From Hallerella porci (GTDB lineage: Bacteria > Fibrobacterota > Fibrobacteria > Fibrobacterales > Fibrobacteraceae), in the NCBI RefSeq assembly GCF_003148885.1, contig NZ_QGHD01000002.1, forward strand, positions 1 through 64,000: DNA of 64,000 nucleotides. The letters are read 5' to 3'. Below the pieces are notes generated by a model. The model saw only the letters and a program-made list of their open reading frames with translations, had not been told where the DNA came from and ran no database searches. Numbering within the stretch: position 1 is the stretch's first letter; each line of letters starts with the position of its first letter. A program made the translations under genes and the position numbers. Below are positions 5,172 to 46,828 of this stretch, in pieces.

Positions 5172-5699
5172 TTATTTCACATAAAATACGCGGTTTTCTT
5201 TTCGCTTTAATGGCTTGGGGGTATCACCTTCGATGTAGCCCAAAGCGCAGTGCCCAATGCCTTCGTATTCGTCTTCGATGCCCAAAGATTTTAAGAAATT
5301 TTTTCCCCATTCGGTTTCAAATTCTTCACGGGCGCGGTGAATCCAGCACGACCCTATTCCAAGCGAATGTGCCGCAAGCATCAAATTTCCCATGACTAAA
5401 CTTCCGTCGTAAACGCGGTTATACCAGTCTTTTTTTGCAAGCACGATGATCATACAGGGCGCTCCATAAAACGGATCAAAGCCTTCATTCCAGCCGCCAA
5501 TTTTGCGATTCATTTCAGAAATTTCATCGCGGAGTTTTTTATTCGAAACTTGAATCATAATCGTATTTTGTTTGCCTTTTCCGTTGGCAGCAAAAAGGCC
5601 TGCTTCAATAATTTGATCCAAAATTTCTTGCGGAATTGCATCCGATTTAAATTTTCGAATGCTTCTGCGTTCTTTGATTTCTTTCAAAACTTCGTTCAT
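5172..5699 (-). CDS. nitroreductase family protein
   Basis: About 175 residues. An FMN-dependent NAD(P)H oxidoreductase of the nitroreductase fold. The N-terminal motif IKERRSIRKFKSDAIPQEILDQIIEAG provides the Arg-Arg-Ser phosphate-binding site for FMN. LVMGNLMLAAHSLGIGSCWIH is the second FMN-contacting segment, and the C-terminal GHCALGYIEGDTPKPLKRKE with a terminal VFYVK is typical. I start at 5699 because the ATG has an AAGAGG site and begins the family pattern; the upstream ATG would add 14 atypical residues. The physiological substrate is unknown. Confidence 0.88.
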   Translation of the reverse strand: MNEVLKEIKERRSIRKFKSDAIPQEILDQIIEAGLFAANGKGKQNTIMIQVSNKKLRDEISEMNRKIGGWNEGFDPFYGAPCMIIVLAKKDWYNRVYDGSLVMGNLMLAAHSLGIGSCWIHRAREEFETEWGKNFLKSLGIEDEYEGIGHCALGYIEGDTPKPLKRKENRVFYVK

Positions 5700-5811
5700 A
5701 AAAACCTCTTTTTTTGTAAAAGGAATATATAAATTTATCAATTTGATAAATCGATTATTTTGAAAAAGGAAGAAGTGAATTTATTATATTAGTAAAAACA
5801 TTGGATGCTTT

Positions 5812-6291
5812 ATGATTTTATACCATGGCAGTTATTTGAAAATTGAAACGCCTAAAATTTTACGAAGCAATCGCGCTTTGGATTTTGGCGATGCATTTTA
5901 TACAACTTCTGATTTAGAACAAGCATCAAAATGGGCAAAAATTTCTGCTAATCGAAATGGAATAAATCAAGCAGTTGTTTCGGTATTTGATTTTGATGAT
6001 TCAAAACTGCAAAATTTAAAATTTCTGTATTTTGAAAATCCTAATAGCAACTGGTTAAAACTTGTTAGTTCATATCGTTCCAAAAAATTGATCGCCGATG
6101 AATTGGATTTAATTATCGGACCTGTTGCAAACGATAGAACCTTTGATGTTATTCAACTTTATTTAGCAGAAATTTACAACGAAGACGAAACGATAAAAAG
6201 ACTTCTGCCTTTTAAATTAAAAGATCAGTATGCTTTCAAAACAGAAGCCGCATTAAAATTTTTGAAATTTTCAAAAGAGATTTTATTATGA
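5812..6291 (+). CDS. DUF3990 protein, ADP-ribosyltransferase-like candidate toxin
   Basis: 159 residues. The start MILYHGSYLKIETPKILRSNRALDFGDAFYTT is the DUF3990 signature. The YHGS and FGDAFYTT blocks look like the first two conserved sites of ADP-ribosyltransferase folds, in which His and Tyr bind NAD. DLEQASKWAK follows as in the family. DUF3990 genes commonly sit with DUF3791 genes in toxin-antitoxin-like loci, and both types occur here. The gene overlaps the next by four bases (ATGA). Enzyme activity and toxicity are inferences; the catalytic Glu cannot be fixed by eye. Confidence 0.75.
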   Translation: MILYHGSYLKIETPKILRSNRALDFGDAFYTTSDLEQASKWAKISANRNGINQAVVSVFDFDDSKLQNLKFLYFENPNSNWLKLVSSYRSKKLIADELDLIIGPVANDRTFDVIQLYLAEIYNEDETIKRLLPFKLKDQYAFKTEAALKFLKFSKEILL

Positions 6292-6536
6292 GCGATCTTG
6301 TATTTCCTTATTTTTTAGAATACTACGATAAACAAGTTGTCACGATGATTTGTGAAAAATATTCGATGAATGAATTTGAAGCTCTAAGACGATTCATTAA
6401 ATCAAAAACATACGAGATGCTTTGCGACAAAAACTTTGAAATGTGGTACTACGGATACCCCGCTATTTTTAACATTTGGGAAAGCGAACAGATTACCGGT
6501 GACCCTAGAAACTCAAGCTATATTAAAGGAATCTAA
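6288..6536 (+). CDS. small protein of the DUF3990 locus
   Basis: 82 residues starting MSDLVFPYFLEYYDKQVVTMICEKY. It overlaps the DUF3990 gene by four bases and the next small gene by one base, so the three are almost certainly co-translated. The first 35 residues resemble the DUF3791 helical pattern, and the rest is unusual (a WYYGYPAIFNIWESE aromatic stretch). It is a plausible neutralising partner or a specificity subunit. No confident family assignment. Confidence 0.65.
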   Translation: MSDLVFPYFLEYYDKQVVTMICEKYSMNEFEALRRFIKSKTYEMLCDKNFEMWYYGYPAIFNIWESEQITGDPRNSSYIKGI

Positions 6537-6730
6537 TGTCAAAAGAAATGGAATACTTTATTTTTTTGCTTGAGCAATACGCCAGATATAAAAGCTCAAC
6601 CGCAAATAAAATCCTTGAAAAATGGGATGCATTAAATATTACGCAAAAAATTTTTGACAGTTATTGGCGTTATCATACCGAAGCAATCGAAAATGCTTTT
6701 GCTGAAATTGATAAGTGGAGCGAAAAATAA
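6536..6730 (+). CDS. DUF3791 family protein, candidate antitoxin
   Basis: 64 residues. MSKEMEYFIFLLEQYARYK with KILEKWDALNITQKIFDSYWRYHTE follows the DUF3791 pattern, a small helical family usually encoded beside DUF3990. Start and previous stop share one base (TAATG). It closes the three-gene locus; the expansin gene starts 15 bases later on the same strand but appears functionally unrelated. Antitoxin role is inferred from gene order only. Confidence 0.7.
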   Translation: MSKEMEYFIFLLEQYARYKSSTANKILEKWDALNITQKIFDSYWRYHTEAIENAFAEIDKWSEK

Positions 6731-6745
6731 AGTATATTCAAACGC

Positions 6746-7633
6746 ATGAAATTTTCTTGTGCCTTTATTTTATTATGCCTTTTCCTTGCCGCTTGTGGAA
6801 GCGATTCTTCAAATAATGCCACGGCAGAAATTTCATCTGAAACTTCATCAGCGAAAAATTCTTCTAGCAGTATCGTAAAAGCAGAATCATCCAATTCGCA
6901 AAGTTCATCAGACAATGGCGTTTGTACTAGCTGCGATAATTTTACGGCCGCAGATCCTGTGCTTACAAAAAATGGCGGTTACGGTTCTATCACAACATAC
7001 GGAAGCATCTCTGCAAAAGAAACAAGTTTCGGCGGCGCTTGTAATTACGGACAAACGAATATTCAATATTACGCTGCGATTCATGTGAATGTTTCGCCAG
7101 GCGATAATTTAGGACCTTGGCAAGGCGGCGCAATCTGCGGAGCTTGTGTCCGCGTAAAAGCACGAACTCCGGAAGGTTTCAAAGAAGTCACCGTGCGAAT
7201 TACAGATCGCTGTCCCGATGCAAATTGCGGAGTCGATTTGGGCGGTGCTCCTGCCTACGACATCATGGGCGAAAAAGTTGGCAGATATTCTGGCGAATGG
7301 GAATTTGTAAGTTGCGAAAATGTCAAAGGCGTGTGGGGAGATTCCACAAGTGTCTTCGTCAAAGAAGGCGCAAGCGCTTACTGGAGCATTATACAAGTGC
7401 GAAATCCAAAAGATGCCGTGAAAGAAATTTCGATTGTAAAAGCAGGCGCAAACGATTTGCCCGAAGCATTAAAATTTGCGACCGAAGCCGAAAACTTTTG
7501 GACGGTTCCAAAGTCCGTTCTTCAAAATGATAGCGATTATCTTTTGCAAATTCAATATCGAAGCGGCGCGCCGGACACCTTGAAAATCAAAGGATCCGAG
7601 CTTGCTCTTGGTAATGCAAATTATTATATCTGA
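6746..7633 (+). CDS. expansin-like lipoprotein
   Basis: 295 residues. Expansins loosen plant cell walls without hydrolysis. A lipoprotein signal peptide ends in LAAC (Cys17), followed by a serine-rich linker to about residue 60, so the protein should be anchored in the outer membrane and displayed outward. Residues 65-190 form the double-psi beta-barrel domain: GGACNYGQ, CGACVRVKARTPEG, the TDRCPDANCGVDLGGAPAYDI block with the Asp that is essential in expansins, and EWEFVSC. The rest fits the second, CBM63-like domain that binds cellulose. Three conserved cysteine pairs are likely. Context is a rumen-type fibre degrader, together with the GH74 gene later in the window. Confidence 0.85.
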   Translation: MKFSCAFILLCLFLAACGSDSSNNATAEISSETSSAKNSSSSIVKAESSNSQSSSDNGVCTSCDNFTAADPVLTKNGGYGSITTYGSISAKETSFGGACNYGQTNIQYYAAIHVNVSPGDNLGPWQGGAICGACVRVKARTPEGFKEVTVRITDRCPDANCGVDLGGAPAYDIMGEKVGRYSGEWEFVSCENVKGVWGDSTSVFVKEGASAYWSIIQVRNPKDAVKEISIVKAGANDLPEALKFATEAENFWTVPKSVLQNDSDYLLQIQYRSGAPDTLKIKGSELALGNANYYI

Positions 7634-37835: not shown

Positions 37836-37877
37836 GTGTCATCCTGAACGGAGCGTAGCGAAGTGAACGGATCTAGC
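37836..37877. repeat. intergenic palindromic-type repeat element
   Basis: The stretch GTCATCCTGAACGGAGCGTA followed by GCGAAGTGAACGGATCTAG resembles a short dispersed intergenic repeat common in several bacterial genomes (pattern TCATCCTGA-GNAGCGAAG-GGATCT). Only one copy lies in this window, so identity as a repeat rests on recognition, not on internal evidence. Confidence 0.5.
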
Positions 37878-37955
37878 ATTATAAAGAAATTTCTTGACGA
37901 AATTGTTTTTTTCTTACATTATTACGTAAAAATTTTATCATGGAGTGTTAAAAAG

Positions 37956-39296
37956 ATGAAACTGTTTCATTTTGGAATAAAATCAGCAGCGGTTGCGCTT
38001 GGTGCGGCATCGCTTTTTGGGCTCAGCGCTTGCAGCGATGATTCGAGTTCCAATTCCAACGCATTGGATTTCGACGTTATCGAAACTTTAACCGAAGCGG
38101 ATTCTTGCCGCACAGAAATTGCGGGAGATTCCATTTTCGTCAAAGACGAAGCGCAAGTTTACGTTTGCAAAGACAGCGTTTGGGAAAAAGTAAATTTAGA
38201 AATTTCGTCTTCTTCGGAAAAATCTTCAAGCAGCGAAGTTTCCAGCTCCAGCGAAAAAGTAAAAAATGTCGCGACCGAAAAGGACTTGGGAAAGTGCTCT
38301 GCAAAACTTGACGGTGATGCGATTTTTGTAGAAAATTCTTCAACTTATTTTGTATGTGCCGAAAATATTTGGGTGCAGTTGAAAGAAGTCAAGGAATCAA
38401 GTTCGAGCGCTCCCAAAAGTTCGAGCAGCACAAAGTCAAGTTCTAGCATCGCGAAAAGTTCGTCTAGCGTTTCTTCGAGCTCGGAAAAGCACATCGTCGA
38501 AAATTTCGAAGATTTAGAAAAATGCTCTGACAAGAACGAAGGCTTTGCTGTTTACGTCGAAAGCGAATCGGCTTATTACGCCTGCAAAAATTCGCAGTGG
38601 GTCAAGTTCACCGAATACGTTGAAAGTTCCAGCAGCAAAATGAGTTCGAGCAGCGAACGCAAACGCATGATTGAAACGTTTGACGAAATTGACGAATGCA
38701 CCGAAGAATTGGACGGCGAAGCGGTTTATGTCAAAGACGAAATGATATACTTTATTTGCAAAGAAGACAAGTGGGTCAAATTCCAGGAATATGTCGAAAG
38801 CTCAAGTTCAAAAGAAAAATTATCATCAAGTAACAGCGAAATTGTTGCGGACACTGCTGTTGATTTAGGCTTAAGCGTGAAGTGGGCAAACATTAACATT
38901 GGGGCGGCTGAACCAACAGATTATGGTGATTATTATGCCTGTGGAGAAACCAAAACAATTGCTACTGCAAAATGGGGGGAAAAATGGAGGGTACCAACAA
39001 AAGACGAGTTTCAAGAACTTTTAAATAATTGTCGTTGGTATTGGGGATCTGAAAAAAATAGCCTCGGGATATCAATTAACGGATATTTTGTAAAAAGCAA
39101 GAAAAACAACAACATGATATTTCTTCCAGCTGCAGGATATCGAGGTTCCGTTTTGTCTTTCGCAGGCTCTGGCGGCTACTACTGGAGTTCTACTCCTGAC
39201 TACTACTCATTGTACTTCGAATCAAATAGCTATCATATGAGCGAAGGCAGCCGATGCAGCGAAGGCCAATCCATCCGACCTGTCTTAGCTGAATAG
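37956..39296 (+). CDS. serine-rich lipoprotein with FISUMP domain and four Cys-repeats
   Basis: About 446 residues. Signal peptide ending GLSAC (Cys26). Between poly-Ser linkers lie four short modules of about 32 residues (SCRTEIAGDSIFVKDE with VYVCKDSVWEKVN; then KCSAKLDGDAIF, KCSDKNEGFAVY, ECTEELDGEAVY), each with paired cysteines and an aromatic close. The C-terminal 150 residues are a Fibrobacter succinogenes major paralogous-type domain: VDLGLSVKWANINIGAAEP, YGDYYACGE, KWRVPTKDEFQELL, FLPAAGYRGS and YYWSSTP. Start at 37956 begins a clean lipoprotein signal. Likely surface-exposed. Function unknown, possibly carbohydrate binding or adhesion. Confidence 0.85.
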   Translation: MKLFHFGIKSAAVALGAASLFGLSACSDDSSSNSNALDFDVIETLTEADSCRTEIAGDSIFVKDEAQVYVCKDSVWEKVNLEISSSSEKSSSSEVSSSSEKVKNVATEKDLGKCSAKLDGDAIFVENSSTYFVCAENIWVQLKEVKESSSSAPKSSSSTKSSSSIAKSSSSVSSSSEKHIVENFEDLEKCSDKNEGFAVYVESESAYYACKNSQWVKFTEYVESSSSKMSSSSERKRMIETFDEIDECTEELDGEAVYVKDEMIYFICKEDKWVKFQEYVESSSSKEKLSSSNSEIVADTAVDLGLSVKWANINIGAAEPTDYGDYYACGETKTIATAKWGEKWRVPTKDEFQELLNNCRWYWGSEKNSLGISINGYFVKSKKNNNMIFLPAAGYRGSVLSFAGSGGYYWSSTPDYYSLYFESNSYHMSEGSRCSEGQSIRPVLAE

Positions 39297-41609: not shown

Positions 41610-41798
41610 AAAGCCGAAATCGTTGCCGAAGTTGCGTTGCAAAGTCGACGATGATTTTGAGAGAATCCGGTGAAAATCCGGAACGGTCCCGCCGCTGTAT
41701 GGGAGTACGAAACCGGTGAATTTCAAAACCAGTGAAAGGCAAATCCTTTTGCGAAGGAACCGGAAGTAGGTTTATCCCCGAGTCAGAAGAACTGCGAA
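41610..41798 (+). promoter_or_regulatory. cobalamin riboswitch
   Basis: Conserved cobalamin aptamer blocks in order: GAGAATCCGGTGAAAATCCG, GGTCCCGCCGCTGTA, CCAGTG, GCGAAGGAACCGGAAG and CCGAGTCAGAAGAACTGC. These match the core of the B12 element, including the GAGTCAG ending. It lies 36 bases before the start of the TonB-dependent receptor, so adenosylcobalamin or a relative should repress the downstream uptake genes. Outer stem ends are approximate. Confidence 0.92.
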
Positions 41799-41833
41799 AA
41801 CTTTCGTCTTTGCGAAAGCAAAGAAGAGGAACG

Positions 41834-43837
41834 ATGCGAAAGACATTGCGACTTAAAACGAGCGTGAGTTTCGTTGTTTTTGTTGTGAGTTCGTTTGCGA
41901 ACTTGTGGGCTTCTGATGTCCAAGATTTGGGCGTTTCTGAAATTTCTGCAGAGCCAGTGAGCCCCAAAAATATCGCTCCGAGTTACGAAGAAATTTTGCC
42001 GGATGCTTGGGAAGGTCGCGGGCTTTCGCCATCAGAAGTTTTGTCTGCGCTTCCGGGAATTCAAAGTTACAAGCAAGGCGGCATGGGGAGTTTTCAAACC
42101 GTGAGCATTCGCGGCGTCGCAGCGCGAAATATTTTGATTTGCATCGACGGAATTCCTTTGAATGATGCGGGCGGCGGCGCTGTAGATTTGGGCGCAATCG
42201 ATTTAAATAACATCGAAAAAATTGAAGTTTATAAAGATCGTGTTCCCGCAAAATTTGGCGGTTCAGGACTCGGCGGCGCGATTAACTTTATCACCAAAAA
42301 AGCAAAGCCCAAAACAGACGGACGCATTTTAGCCAGTTACGGAAGCCATAACGCTTTAGAAGGTTCAGCACAAATTAACCTTTCGCCTAAAGACAGCGTC
42401 AATTTTGCAGCGACAATTTCGGCGCGGCACAGCGATAACGATTACGAATTTAAGAATCGAAACGGCACGCGTTATAATACGGAAGACGATTTTACAGACA
42501 AACGAAAAAATGCAGAATTTTCGGAATATTCCGGAGATTTTAAGTATCGCATTTTGCATGCGGGCGATTATTTTTCGACATTTTCTGCAAGCGCAACTTA
42601 CACCGAAGCAGGAAATCCAGGCCACGAAAGTTCGCAAACTCAAGTCGCCAATTTTGTGGGCGAACGTTCCCAACTCGGTTATCGTTTGGAATTTCCCATT
42701 CTTTTGAACAGCGTTCTTTTGGAATCGGGAGTGACGGCGACTTTTGAAAAAAATGTTTCTGGCTCGTATTATCCGCTGGATTTTATCGGCTACACCAATC
42801 CAGATTTTATTGAATACGGACTTGCCGGTTATCGTTTAAATCCCGAAGTTTTAGCAAATATTATTTTGAATCGCTTCGAAGGAATGATTCGATTTGCTGG
42901 AAGCGCAGAAACTTGGGGCGCACGCGGAAGCATTCAAGATTTCGGTTTAACGCGTTACACAATCAGTACGTCTGCAAGCGCAGAATTTGCCGCAATGAAT
43001 TGGGCGTCAATTTTTGCCGAGGGAAATGTTTTAAAAACAATTGACGATGTCGATGGCGGAAAATTTTTAATGCCCACGGGTACTGCAATCGTCGACGACG
43101 CAGAAAATCGAAGCATCAATTTTTCGGGAATGGTGCAGTTGAAATTAGGGAAAAAAGATTCGCACTTTGGTGCAAATGCATCCATTGGACGTTATTTTCG
43201 GCAGCCGCAACTGATGGAACTTTACGGCGTTTATCACGGAGTGCTTTCGAATCCGACTTTGAAAAATGAAACCGCAATCCGATTTGAAGTCGGCGGATTT
43301 ATCGAATCGCCTTCGAAAAAATCCATTTTGCGCATCACTTATTTTAATACGCATTTAGACAACGGCATTTATTGGATTGCCAAAACAAATGCGATGAAAG
43401 CTTTTAACATCGGCGAAGCAGAAATTTACGGCGTTGAAATGGAATTGAACAGTCGCCCCATTTCGTTTTTTGAAACGACTTTACGCGGCACAATTCAAAA
43501 TCCACGCGACAAAGGAGAGCTCAAAATGTATCACGGAAAACTTTTGCCAGGCGAACCCGTGCACAGTTATTTTGTCGAAGGAAAATTATTCTTGCCGTTC
43601 CATTTTGATTTGACTTTTGATGCGACATACCGCACACGAATTTACAGCGACCGAATGAATGATACAAGACAACCCGACAATGCGCGTTATAACGCAGCCC
43701 TTGGATTTAATCCTTGGGAAAAAACGCGGTTTATTTTTGCCATCACAAATATTTCGGACGAAAATTACACCAACATTTACAGCCCATTTCCAACTCCAGG
43801 AAGAGAATTTAAAATCACACTTTTACAAAAATTTTAA
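41834..43837 (+). CDS. btuB: TonB-dependent cobalamin receptor
   Basis: 668 residues. Outer-membrane beta-barrel that imports vitamin B12. Signal peptide MRKTLRLKTSVSFVVFVVSS; plug domain with LSPSEVLSALPGIQSYKQGG, VSIRGVAARNILICIDGIPL, and FGGSGLGGAINFITK; C-terminal barrel strand FPTPGREFKITLLQKF ends in Phe, as barrels usually do. The start at 41834 follows AGAGGAACG; longer starts enter the riboswitch. The B12 riboswitch directly upstream supports the substrate. The beta-propeller lipoprotein gene follows 54 bases later. Confidence 0.88.
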   Translation: MRKTLRLKTSVSFVVFVVSSFANLWASDVQDLGVSEISAEPVSPKNIAPSYEEILPDAWEGRGLSPSEVLSALPGIQSYKQGGMGSFQTVSIRGVAARNILICIDGIPLNDAGGGAVDLGAIDLNNIEKIEVYKDRVPAKFGGSGLGGAINFITKKAKPKTDGRILASYGSHNALEGSAQINLSPKDSVNFAATISARHSDNDYEFKNRNGTRYNTEDDFTDKRKNAEFSEYSGDFKYRILHAGDYFSTFSASATYTEAGNPGHESSQTQVANFVGERSQLGYRLEFPILLNSVLLESGVTATFEKNVSGSYYPLDFIGYTNPDFIEYGLAGYRLNPEVLANIILNRFEGMIRFAGSAETWGARGSIQDFGLTRYTISTSASAEFAAMNWASIFAEGNVLKTIDDVDGGKFLMPTGTAIVDDAENRSINFSGMVQLKLGKKDSHFGANASIGRYFRQPQLMELYGVYHGVLSNPTLKNETAIRFEVGGFIESPSKKSILRITYFNTHLDNGIYWIAKTNAMKAFNIGEAEIYGVEMELNSRPISFFETTLRGTIQNPRDKGELKMYHGKLLPGEPVHSYFVEGKLFLPFHFDLTFDATYRTRIYSDRMNDTRQPDNARYNAALGFNPWEKTRFIFAITNISDENYTNIYSPFPTPGREFKITLLQKF

Positions 43838-43891
43838 CCCAAAACTGTTCTCGTTCAAACCGAGAATGTCACTTCAACAAAAGGAAAAGAC

Positions 43892-45331
43892 ATGAGTCGA
43901 AAGATTCTCCCCCTCATTTTAACCGCCGGCCTTACCGCATTCTTTGCGGCTTGCGATGACAGCAGCAGCGCAGCAAGCGTTGAATGCCTCGACGATAACT
44001 GCTTAGATAGTTCTTCGAGCGTAGAAGAAGAAATTTCTTCGAGCAGCGAAAAAGAAAATAAGTCTTCAAGCTCGGTAAAGGATGAAAAATCCTCGAGCTC
44101 TGAAAAAAGCGACAAGTCTTCAAGTTCTGTAAAAGAAGACAAATCTTCTAGCTCTACGAAAGATGAAAAGTCTTCAAGCTCGGTGAAAGATGAAAAATCC
44201 TCAAGCTCTGAAAAGAGCGACAAGTCTTCTAGCTCTGTAAAAGAAGACAAATCTTCTAGTTCTAGCGAAGATGTTTCGAGTTCTTCCGACGCACCGGAAT
44301 CTTCTTCGAGCGTTAAATATTTGAGCACAACTCCGAACTTAGCAGACCTCGAAGTTTCGGGCGATACATTGTTTGCCGTATTCCAACGCTTAAATGGTTA
44401 TTCTGCAGACCAAGTTGGTCTTTTAGCCTTGTATAACCGCAGCACCGGTGAATTGCTCGATACAATTTCTCTTGCAACCTCGACTCCGATGAAAATTCAA
44501 ATTGCAAACGGCGAAGTTTATGTTTGCACACAAGGCGCTTACGATGCAGCATACTCTTTACCTGCTGATGAAAATCGCGGCATTGAAAAAGTGAATTTGT
44601 CCAAGAAAACTTCTTCGCTTTATGTGAGCGGAACAAAACTCGGCGGCGGCGTCAATGATTTTGTCATCAATCAAAAAACGGGTAAGGCATACGCTGTTGT
44701 TACATCAACATACGGAAATTCTCCCGTTGTAGAAATTGACCTTTCTTCAAAGGCGACAAAGAAAATTGAAAGCATTAAAAATGCGCCTTATTCCATGGCA
44801 TACGATAGTAAAAACGGACTTGTTTATTTTGCAGATAACTACATCGATTATACAACATACAAAATGCACATTGGTGTATTCTCTTACGATGGCACAACTC
44901 TCACGAGCATTTCGGATAATGACCCTGAAGAAGAAGGTCGCCCTCCTTACAACATCCAAGTGTTAGATGGCGTTCCCTACGTTTTCGTTTCGGATTATAG
45001 CACGGGAAAACTTTATATCCATTATGCTGATTCCGAATCCGAAGGCGTTTCGTACTATCAAGATTCTAAACTTGCCGTGGCAAATGGGAAACTTTATTTG
45101 ATGGAACGCGATTTAGCTAACGGAACTCTTGCAGAAATCAATACTTCTACAGGAAAACCCAACTGGCAATATTCCATTGGCAAAGGCAACGCCTACGATG
45201 TCGTTCCGGCCGACGCAGGAAACCTTTGGATTGCTCTCTACAATGTCCCAGAAATTCGTAAAGTTACGACAAGCGGAAAAGTCGTGACAGATGGCGCAAT
45301 CAATACCGAAAAATTCAGCCGTCACGAATAA
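43892..45331 (+). CDS. serine-repeat lipoprotein with beta-propeller, candidate BtuG analogue
   Basis: 479 residues. Lipobox FFAAC (Cys21). Residues 40-140 are a Ser-rich stalk made of nine-residue repeats (KSSSSVKDE-like). From about 145 on, repeated blades read DLEVSGDTLFAVFQRLNGY, TGELLDTISLATST, IQIANGEVYVCTQGAYDAAY, EKVNLSKKTSSLYVSGTKLG, and NQKTGKAYAVVTSTYGNSPV, the YVTN/NHL-type beta-propeller form. In Bacteroides, BtuG is a surface beta-propeller lipoprotein that captures B12 and docks on BtuB; here the gene directly follows a riboswitch-controlled btuB. Homology with BtuG by sequence was not tested. Confidence 0.75.
   Translation: MSRKILPLILTAGLTAFFAACDDSSSAASVECLDDNCLDSSSSVEEEISSSSEKENKSSSSVKDEKSSSSEKSDKSSSSVKEDKSSSSTKDEKSSSSVKDEKSSSSEKSDKSSSSVKEDKSSSSSEDVSSSSDAPESSSSVKYLSTTPNLADLEVSGDTLFAVFQRLNGYSADQVGLLALYNRSTGELLDTISLATSTPMKIQIANGEVYVCTQGAYDAAYSLPADENRGIEKVNLSKKTSSLYVSGTKLGGGVNDFVINQKTGKAYAVVTSTYGNSPVVEIDLSSKATKKIESIKNAPYSMAYDSKNGLVYFADNYIDYTTYKMHIGVFSYDGTTLTSISDNDPEEEGRPPYNIQVLDGVPYVFVSDYSTGKLYIHYADSESEGVSYYQDSKLAVANGKLYLMERDLANGTLAEINTSTGKPNWQYSIGKGNAYDVVPADAGNLWIALYNVPEIRKVTTSGKVVTDGAINTEKFSRHE
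44060..44275 (+). repeat. 27-bp tandem repeat inside lipoprotein gene
   Basis: Eight in-frame 27-base units encode K-S-S-S-S-x-K-x-D/E. The tails run VKDE, EKSD, VKED, TKDE, VKDE, EKSD, VKED, SEDV: the set VKDE-EKSD-VKED appears twice, meaning a block duplication of units. Such minisatellites vary in copy number between strains. Confidence 0.85.
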
Positions 45332-45356
45332 GAAAATTCTAAAATTTTCAAAGTAA

Positions 45357-45388
45357 CAAAGATACCCCATCGGGGTATCTTTGTTTTT
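45357..45388 (+). terminator. rho-independent terminator
   Basis: CAAAGATACCCC (45357-45368), loop ATC, GGGGTATCTTTG (45372-45383), perfect 12-bp stem, then five T. Ends the B12 operon. Confidence 0.92.
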
Positions 45389-45407
45389 ATCGATTTGACA
45401 AGAAAAA

Positions 45408-46235
45408 TTATTTTTTCAATGCGGCGGCAAAATTTTCAAGATTCGATTCTCCCGCGAGATTCGGATACGCTTTGCGAATTTTTGCGGTCAATTCTTTTGC
45501 ATCTTTTGATTCTGCTGCTAATCTTTTTAGCGCATTCAAATATTCAATTTTAAATGTGACAGCTTCTTTCGTCGTCGAGCCGCCGTGACTGCCGACAAAT
45601 AATTCTGCACCCGAAGCAAGCGAAGATTTTGCCGCCGCAATTTCTGCATCTACCGCAGCCATGCTCGAAATTTGTAACGCCGAAGGATGCTCTTTCGCCG
45701 GAGCCCAATGCGTTAAATAAACTTTTCCGCCGATGCAAATTCCTGCCGCCGGGAAATCGGTTGCTGCGCCTTTTTCAAACCGGAATGAAATTCCTGCAAG
45801 AGTTACCGTTTCGCCGAATTTTACTTCTGTCGCTTTGCTCACATCCGGAAGGATGACTAATTTTCCCGCCCACTGTTTTTGAAATCCCTTCATCATGCCG
45901 CCGTAAATCGGGCCGACTAAAAAGGATTTCATGCCTTCGGCGACGTAAAGTTTTGAATCTTTCACCGCACCTTCGTGATAATCCGTAATGGACGCGACAA
46001 TCGGCTTTTGAAGCTTTGCCACATAAGCGTCAAATTCCTTAGCATTTTCTTGGAAAAGTGGAACTTCCAAAACGACAAGTTCTGATTTCCCTTCGACGAT
46101 AAAACTGGCATCGCCCATGACATCGCCCGAATTATAAACGTGCATTTTGAAAGCACCGAAATCGTAAGCGGTGAAATTTCCGGCTTGAGCAATCGCTGCC
46201 GAAAGAACTGTTGCTGCAATCGTTGTCTTTGTCAT
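45408..46235 (-). CDS. exported metallo-beta-lactamase-like protein with degenerate motif
   Basis: 275 residues. Signal peptide (TTIAATVLSAAIAQAGNF) directs export. The body fits a metallo-beta-lactamase-like fold: SFIVEGKSELVVLEVPLFQENA, then IVASITDYHEGAV where the HxHxDH site is expected, HWAPAKEHPSAL and LFVGSHGGSTT. Most metal-binding histidines of the first motif are replaced, so zinc hydrolase activity is doubtful. It is divergent from an HxlR regulator, which may control it. Substrate unknown. Confidence 0.7.
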   Translation of the reverse strand: MTKTTIAATVLSAAIAQAGNFTAYDFGAFKMHVYNSGDVMGDASFIVEGKSELVVLEVPLFQENAKEFDAYVAKLQKPIVASITDYHEGAVKDSKLYVAEGMKSFLVGPIYGGMMKGFQKQWAGKLVILPDVSKATEVKFGETVTLAGISFRFEKGAATDFPAAGICIGGKVYLTHWAPAKEHPSALQISSMAAVDAEIAAAKSSLASGAELFVGSHGGSTTKEAVTFKIEYLNALKRLAAESKDAKELTAKIRKAYPNLAGESNLENFAAALKK

Positions 46236-46459: not shown

Positions 46460-46828
46460 ATGGCGAAATTAGAAATTTTAGATGAAAATTTTCCCACTTG
46501 TCCGATTCGCAATGTGCTGAGCCGCATTGGCGATAAATGGTCAATTCTAATTCTCTACACGTTAAATCAAAAGCCGGCGACGCGTTTCAAAGAATTGCAC
46601 CGCAGCATTCCCGATATTTCACAAAAGATGCTCACTTCTACATTAAAAACTTTAGAAGCCGATGGACTGATTTTACGGAAAGCATTTCCCGTTGTGCCGC
46701 CACGCGTTGAATATTCCCTTTCGCATCGCGGTGAAACGTTAATGCCGATTATTCAAGAGCTCATCGATTGGGCACTGCAAAATATGAAGAAAATTGTGAA
46801 CGAGCGAAAAAAATCGCAAGTCGCTTAA
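46460..46828 (+). CDS. HxlR family transcriptional regulator
   Basis: 122 residues. CPIRNVLSRIGDKWSILILYTL with Cys in the N-terminal part, RFKELHRSIPDISQKMLTSTLK, and LEADGLILRKAF, VPPRVEYSLSHRGETLMPII are diagnostic of HxlR winged helix regulators, which often sense reactive or electrophilic compounds through the cysteine. A AAAGGA site precedes the ATG. It is divergent from the exported MBL-like gene and is probably its regulator. Confidence 0.9.
   Translation: MAKLEILDENFPTCPIRNVLSRIGDKWSILILYTLNQKPATRFKELHRSIPDISQKMLTSTLKTLEADGLILRKAFPVVPPRVEYSLSHRGETLMPIIQELIDWALQNMKKIVNERKKSQVA

Follow-up and report, generated by a model that had tools for sequence, protein, structure and literature searches.

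The closest described systems are the BtuB-BtuG loci of Bacteroidota, known from Bacteroides thetaiotaomicron (BtuB2G2, BtuB3G3 and BtuB1G1; PMC6143338, PMC10404256), in which a cobalamin riboswitch, the TonB-dependent receptor BtuB and an adjacent lipid-anchored seven-bladed beta-propeller, BtuG, occur together. The thirteen hydrogen bonds that BtuG2 makes to cobalamin involve blades 1–4 (PMC10404256). BtuG has been called exclusive to Bacteroidetes in a study that searched 313 human gut genomes (PMC6143338), and among open-licence papers we found none naming BtuG and Fibrobacter together, although earlier notice elsewhere is possible. Here we consider an operon of Hallerella porci (Fibrobacterota) located in the first 64,000 nucleotides of contig NZ_QGHD01000002.1 (assembly GCF_003148885.1); this whole stretch is further referred to as the window. 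The operon contains a cobalamin riboswitch, a gene for a BtuB-like receptor and a gene for a propeller lipoprotein. A preceding analysis that used only the letters of the window (the sequence-only reading) had proposed a BtuBG system outside Bacteroidota. Fold, profile ranks and operon conservation support this proposal, and we consider it highly probable that the locus is an operon for BtuBG-type capture of vitamin B12 (corrinoid) under riboswitch control, its surface propeller being homologous to BtuG and, here, permuted. The permutation, the homology and the conservation of the operon are established by computation.

The operon and its propeller

All elements of the operon are on the forward strand. 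The aptamer (41619–41813) matches the Rfam model RF00174 over its full length (model 1–189; 78.9 bits, the gathering score being 31.5; E 9.3e-18, cmscan), the match ending 21 bases before the btuB start codon, and a scan of the 2.85-Mb genome yielded this one match only. The start codon of the receptor gene (41834–43837, 667 aa) is the ATG at 41834, with a ribosome site resembling AGAGGA in front of it; the mechanically assigned GTG start of the same open reading frame (ORF), at 41732, falls within the riboswitch. Pfam matches identify a TonB plug (E 8.5e-18) and a barrel (E 4.5e-17) in the receptor. Its top NCBIfam model is the TonB-dependent B12 receptor TIGR01779, with an E-value of 6.5e-31 and yet a score far under the trusted cut-off. 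Its closest solved relative in PDB is BtuB of Escherichia coli (E 3.7e-18), and BtuB of Bacteroides (8p97, 8bmx, 8blw) was also matched. Judged by sequence similarity, it is a TonB-dependent receptor most similar to B12 receptors. The gap between the two genes is 54 bp and contains neither a gene nor a convincing terminator. The lipoprotein gene (43892–45331, 479 aa) is a single ORF with homologues beside btuB across the phylum. It is followed by an intrinsic terminator at 45355–45389, absent from the list of a simple terminator scan and formed by a 14-bp hairpin (45355–45385; −21.8 kcal/mol, z −5.8, none of 200 shuffles as good) and a T run. The order given in the sequence-only reading, namely riboswitch, receptor, propeller lipoprotein on a Ser-rich stalk and then one terminator, was thus borne out by RF00174, Pfam, AlphaFold2 and the hairpin. 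Unlike the Bacteroidota loci, the operon in the window consists of two genes, and its immediate neighbours include neither btuFCD nor other B12 genes.

The lipoprotein begins with a signal peptide with a lipobox (43892–43954; FFAA-CDDSSS, lipidated Cys21), followed by a Ser-rich stalk (43955–44314), a 124-residue linker with 44% Ser. The propeller was divided by comparison with a family profile of 331 positions built from unpermuted proteins only. Its first part (44315–44974) corresponds to profile positions 125–329, that is, blades d, e, f and g plus the inner strand of a, and its second part (44975–45328) to positions 3–122, that is, the rest of blade a, then b and c. The blades of the second part are C-terminal in the window protein and N-terminal in the common form. 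Blades a, b and c correspond to BtuG blades 1–3, and blades d, e, f and g, to BtuG blades 4–7. The AlphaFold2 model of the 338-residue domain has 28 strands, i.e. seven blades of four (predicted local distance difference test, pLDDT, 88.7; predicted template modelling score, pTM, 0.89).

Similarity to BtuG is best seen with unpermuted relatives. One of them, modelled by AlphaFold2, also has 28 strands (pLDDT 97.2, pTM 0.93), and its ten best Foldseek matches in PDB are all BtuG (8bmy, 8okv, 3dsm, 8bai, 8bmz; E 2e-11 to 1e-10), with template modelling scores of 0.72–0.76, ahead of the surface-layer protein 1l0q and of XusB. The predicted fold is a propeller and the matches are BtuG; the structure check suggested in the sequence-only reading, which another fold would have failed, was thus passed. 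A profile built from more distant family members, A3, placed BtuG in ranks 1–9 in PDB (E 1.5e-9 to 3e-8), the first non-BtuG entry having an E-value of 6e-6. With profile A2, BtuG was found at E about 1e-6, and 1l0q was marginally first. The long aligned segment covers BtuG blades 3–7 in the same order. A single-sequence PDB search with the window propeller returned nothing useful. The permuted and unpermuted forms are clearly homologous (277 bits for the rotated window domain against the family profile), and the assignment of the window protein to BtuG by descent, via its unpermuted relatives, is well supported. Since it lacks both the BtuG blade order and a direct match to BtuG, we class it as a BtuG variant and not as plain BtuG. 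Apart from belonging to another phylum, the Fibrobacterota form differs from BtuG in having roughly 11–12% identity to it in structure alignments and in the replacement of the aromatic blade-4 stretch; the window protein differs further in its circular permutation and long Ser stalk.

Circular permutation of the propeller

When the window protein is aligned locally with the common form, the matching segments are in swapped order. In hmmsearch with the family profile, the native window domain was matched in two pieces, about 126–329 and then 3–122 (212 and 54 bits), and after rotation at residue 220, the best cut tried, as one domain 3–329 with 277 bits; cuts elsewhere scored lower. All 20 tested members of the window-type clade behaved in the same way. 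In the rotated register, about 40% of the residues over the long segment are identical to those of the unpermuted form. By these alignments, the window propeller is a circular permutant of the common form, a feature missed in the sequence-only reading. In the window clade the cut falls cleanly at the c/d boundary, the chain starting with blade 4 and ending with blade 3 of the common order. In the common form the chain opens within blade a, after its first strand and before its second, and the C-terminal strand closes the ring; BtuG was read likewise. The BtuG blade order is also that of most other Fibrobacterota and of the Latescibacterota homologues, and we infer that the window propeller is permuted relative to BtuG as well. 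Because the chain opens between c and d and not inside a, the membrane anchor attaches at another blade; given the standard strand directions of propellers, the N-terminus of the window clade would leave from the opposite face.

The linker between anchor and propeller is 62–164 residues long in the window clade (22 Fibrobacteraceae rows with a recognised lipobox, some of them near-identical), compared with a median of about 20 residues in unpermuted relatives (Mann-Whitney p 1e-8, kinship ignored). The long Ser stalk noted in the sequence-only reading is hence present in the window protein and typical of its permuted clade, not of the whole family. A requirement for a long stalk in every permutant was considered and is ruled out by two permutants with linkers of 14 and 20 residues (G015 and G166) and by several long-stalked unpermuted proteins; with these cases, the stalk contrast rests on one clade. 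By our reading, the first propeller strand of G015 and G166 is the fourth of blade c, and their linkers are consistent with, though not proof of, a long stalk being needed only where the N-terminus leaves from the opposite face.

Trees were built after all proteins had been put in the common blade order. The window-type clade forms one group (support 100/100) nested among unpermuted Fibrobacteraceae propellers. Permutants opened between c and d were also found in other families: G015 (L060/L180), G013 (L174), G026 (L175), G029 (L184), G165 (L179) and G166 (L057). They stand about one receptor length behind a riboswitch, except for G166, where the contig ends too early. In one further genus group, G161–G163 (L181, L178, L182), the propellers open at f/g, before blade g, as judged by reading the sequences. 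The c/d trait needs six changes on the tree, and a single origin of the window clade and L060 was rejected (approximately unbiased test, p 1.8e-26). Separate placement is well supported for the window clade (100/100), L060 (99/99), L174 (99/95) and L179 (100/95); L057, L175 and L184 are long branches of unsure placement. As far as these trees go, permutation arose several times in Fibrobacterota, on at least four branches with good support and mostly at the same boundary. It is taken as derived, since both Latescibacterota and Bacteroidota are unpermuted. In one assembly (G132), two tandem unpermuted propeller genes follow one btuB (L047:4341–5459 and 5569–6951), which would be the intermediate type expected for permutation by duplication; another contig of this assembly, which has 8% contamination, carries a permuted locus.

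The receptors paired with the permuted propellers of the window clade also form one clade (Shimodaira-Hasegawa-like approximate likelihood ratio test, 99). Receptor identities are 30–73% to other Fibrobacteraceae loci and about 23–37% to other families, and most of these relatives are behind riboswitches. Receptor and propeller identities correlate (rho 0.92, 1485 pairs). Permuted and unpermuted versions coexist in genus groups g1, g6 and g11, and therefore the two genes seem to travel as one cassette, by inheritance or by exchange.

Conservation across Fibrobacterota and Latescibacterota

The window propeller as a query found relatives in 125 of 168 Fibrobacterota genomes. With family profile A2 the propeller was found in 154 of the 168, including 87 of the 89 high-quality genomes (completeness of 90% or more, contamination of 5% or less), and the gene is also present in 53 of 64 Latescibacterota genomes. 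An RF00174 match lies 2.57–3.49 kb upstream on the same strand for 92 of 115 tallied Fibrobacterota propeller genes, a spacing equal to the length of the intervening btuB-like gene. As most tallied genomes have only one such riboswitch, chance linkage is estimated at about one in a thousand per gene. Some of the remaining 23 genes are at contig ends, have weak riboswitches left off the list or have a riboswitch of a different class. In G150 the same operon has an adenosylcobalamin (AdoCbl-II) riboswitch, RF01689 (L034:4683–4761), rather than RF00174; one class of regulator has been exchanged for another. Directly upstream of the propeller gene, nearly all loci that were read have a BtuB-like ORF on the same strand, mostly with a gap below 75 bp. 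In nearly all relatives the gene thus has the same neighbours, a BtuB-like receptor gene next to it and a cobalamin riboswitch ahead of both; the second refuting outcome named in the sequence-only reading, a gene not conserved next to btuB, was not observed. A 972-residue ORF of L133 that looked like a receptor-propeller fusion was rejected: the receptor is in another frame, and the ORF merely has an overlong start. Beyond the two phyla, contigs were scanned with one peptide pattern, which sets no bound on the range of the family.

A lipobox was recognised by pattern match in 84 of 94 distinct homologous ORFs. In most homologues, acidic residues directly follow the lipidated Cys (CDDSSS, CGDDSS, CSDNS), loosely resembling the lipoprotein export signal of Bacteroidota; they may serve to sort lipoproteins of Fibrobacterota to the surface. 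Latescibacterota loci that were read mostly have the riboswitch and a TonB receptor too. Five propellers of this phylum (L160, L163, L165, L167, L120) have, by eye, an ordinary signal peptide and no lipobox; four end in an FlgD-like or type IX sorting-like C-terminal tail, and the tail of L160 is different and repeat-like. This suggests that in these proteins the B12 capture module is the same but is attached to the surface in another way.

The sequence-only reading had supposed that Fibrobacterota evolved or acquired the strategy of Bacteroides. A BtuBG-type system is well supported; independent invention would fit less well than shared descent within the Fibrobacteres-Chlorobi-Bacteroidetes (FCB) superphylum or an old transfer, given that the family occurs in Fibrobacterota and Latescibacterota with the BtuG blade order. 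A BtuG-type propeller is near-universal in a second phylum, that of Fibrobacter, which degrades cellulose in the rumen, and is frequent in a third; lid-assisted B12 capture hence looks like an old FCB trait and not a speciality of gut Bacteroides. The repeated circular permutations amount to a natural experiment on how a substrate-capturing lid is anchored and hinged, a question that can be tested with proteins of a few hundred residues.

Regarding the need for corrinoids, the genome of Hallerella porci encodes the B12-dependent methionine synthase MetH, and CbiC was not found in it. Dependence on imported corrinoids is therefore probable by gene content. Two Peripla_BP_2 binding proteins encoded elsewhere in the genome are candidates for BtuF.

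Presumed ligand site, alternatives and neighbouring genes

In the numbering of the unpermuted model, residues D8, Y9, D32, N74, D77, Q140, R141, N173, G190, Y192 and LGG 225–227 are conserved in both forms, many of them in the D-A and B-C loops and several in blades a–d. The invariant polar residues D8, Y9, D32, N74, Q140 and R141 are on the face formed by these loops, in blades a–d. Under scarcity of corrinoid, the riboswitch, judging from its class, would permit production of the receptor and the lipoprotein. The lipid-anchored seven-bladed propeller would then most likely bind corrinoid on one face at the cell surface and hand it to the receptor beneath. With the anchor on another blade and the N-terminus leaving from the opposite face, the long Ser-rich stalk may serve as a bridge to the membrane. 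A more tentative extension, which we regard as possible but doubtful, is that the anchor was repeatedly moved by circular permutation with ligand binding kept, nearly always at the same blade boundary, because this boundary sets the hinge of the BtuG lid on BtuB; in the window clade, the exit from the opposite face would have led to a Ser stalk in place of a short hinge.

Several observations weigh against a capture operon of the BtuBG kind. The loops of the presumed binding face show only a weak excess of conservation, not significant over all loop positions (p about 0.12). BtuG pocket residues are not conserved as such, and by our reading the aromatic blade-4 stretch aligns near the invariant Gln-Arg; the binding details must hence differ from those of BtuG. 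The profile of the permuted clade, native or rotated, did not reach BtuG in PDB, so that the link of the window protein to BtuG runs through unpermuted relatives. In Foldseek, E. coli YncE comes out slightly ahead of BtuG as a match of the native permuted model, although such lack of specificity is expected of a permutant, and the siderophore-binding lipoprotein propeller XusB has a similar fold. Finally, the correlation of receptor and propeller identities is partly due to shared species history.

If the YncE match and the lack of conserved BtuG pocket residues are taken together with the abundance of seven-bladed propellers, the lipoprotein could have a generic fold and no affinity for corrinoids, and it would shape or protect the receptor or dock cells or other B12 carriers. 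We find this improbable, as BtuG outranks all other propellers for the unpermuted relatives both by profile (A3) and by fold, the invariant polar residues are on blades a–d, where BtuG2 hydrogen-bonds cobalamin (PMC10404256), and the genes are tightly coupled to B12 riboswitches. It is still less likely that B12 merely co-regulates the receptor-propeller pair and that the ligand imported is a different one, as with XusB (a siderophore or some other tetrapyrrole): the closest solved relatives of the receptor are BtuB, the single cobalamin riboswitch of the genome is on this operon, and XusB (9hqe, 9hqk), a xenosiderophore-binding surface propeller of Bacteroides that is indeed among the fold matches, ranks under BtuG and is absent from the profile matches. 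The only other point in favour of such a ligand is the score of the receptor under the trusted cut-off of the B12 model. As to the permuted order itself, alignments of repeats may shift by one blade and many source genomes are metagenome assemblies, yet an artefact of annotation, assembly or blade register can be practically dismissed. Intact single ORFs occur in 23 Fibrobacteraceae loci, several of them on contigs longer than 100 kb in assemblies of about 10–20 contigs; rotation at residue 220 restores one full domain, scoring best among the cuts (277 bits), with about 40% identity in the long segment, the cut is at the same boundary in all clade members, and AlphaFold2 folds both blade orders well.

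Other proteins are more distant from the BtuG-like lipoprotein. BtuK1 (9s6c) and the DUF4465 proteins BtuH and BtuJ are likewise accessory corrinoid-binding lipoproteins of B12 loci. However, BtuK1 was matched by the unpermuted model only at rank 32 in Foldseek, far weaker than BtuG, and the DUF4465 fold differs from a propeller; no gene of either kind was seen beside the operon in the window. YncE and the YVTN surface-layer propellers belong to the same general propeller class and are weaker matches than BtuG for the unpermuted form; to our knowledge, they have no linkage to B12.

In the gap between btuB and the lipoprotein gene, RNA folding revealed a small stem-loop at 43848–43866 (TTCTCG-TTCAAAC-CGAGAA). 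It is kept in L031, L033 and L035 with a paired change (CCCG/CGGG for CTCG/CGAG) and nearly kept in L032, and possibly has a role in mRNA stability or processing. Upstream in the window, 37863–39296 encodes a further lipoprotein in which Ser-rich segments recur; linkers of this polyserine kind may be widespread in the genome. Two genes downstream are outside the B12 operon: the convergent 45408–46235 encodes a secreted protein that by eye resembles a hydrolase of the metallo-beta-lactamase fold (no Pfam domain above cut-off), and 46460–46828 encodes, also by eye, an HxlR-like regulator.

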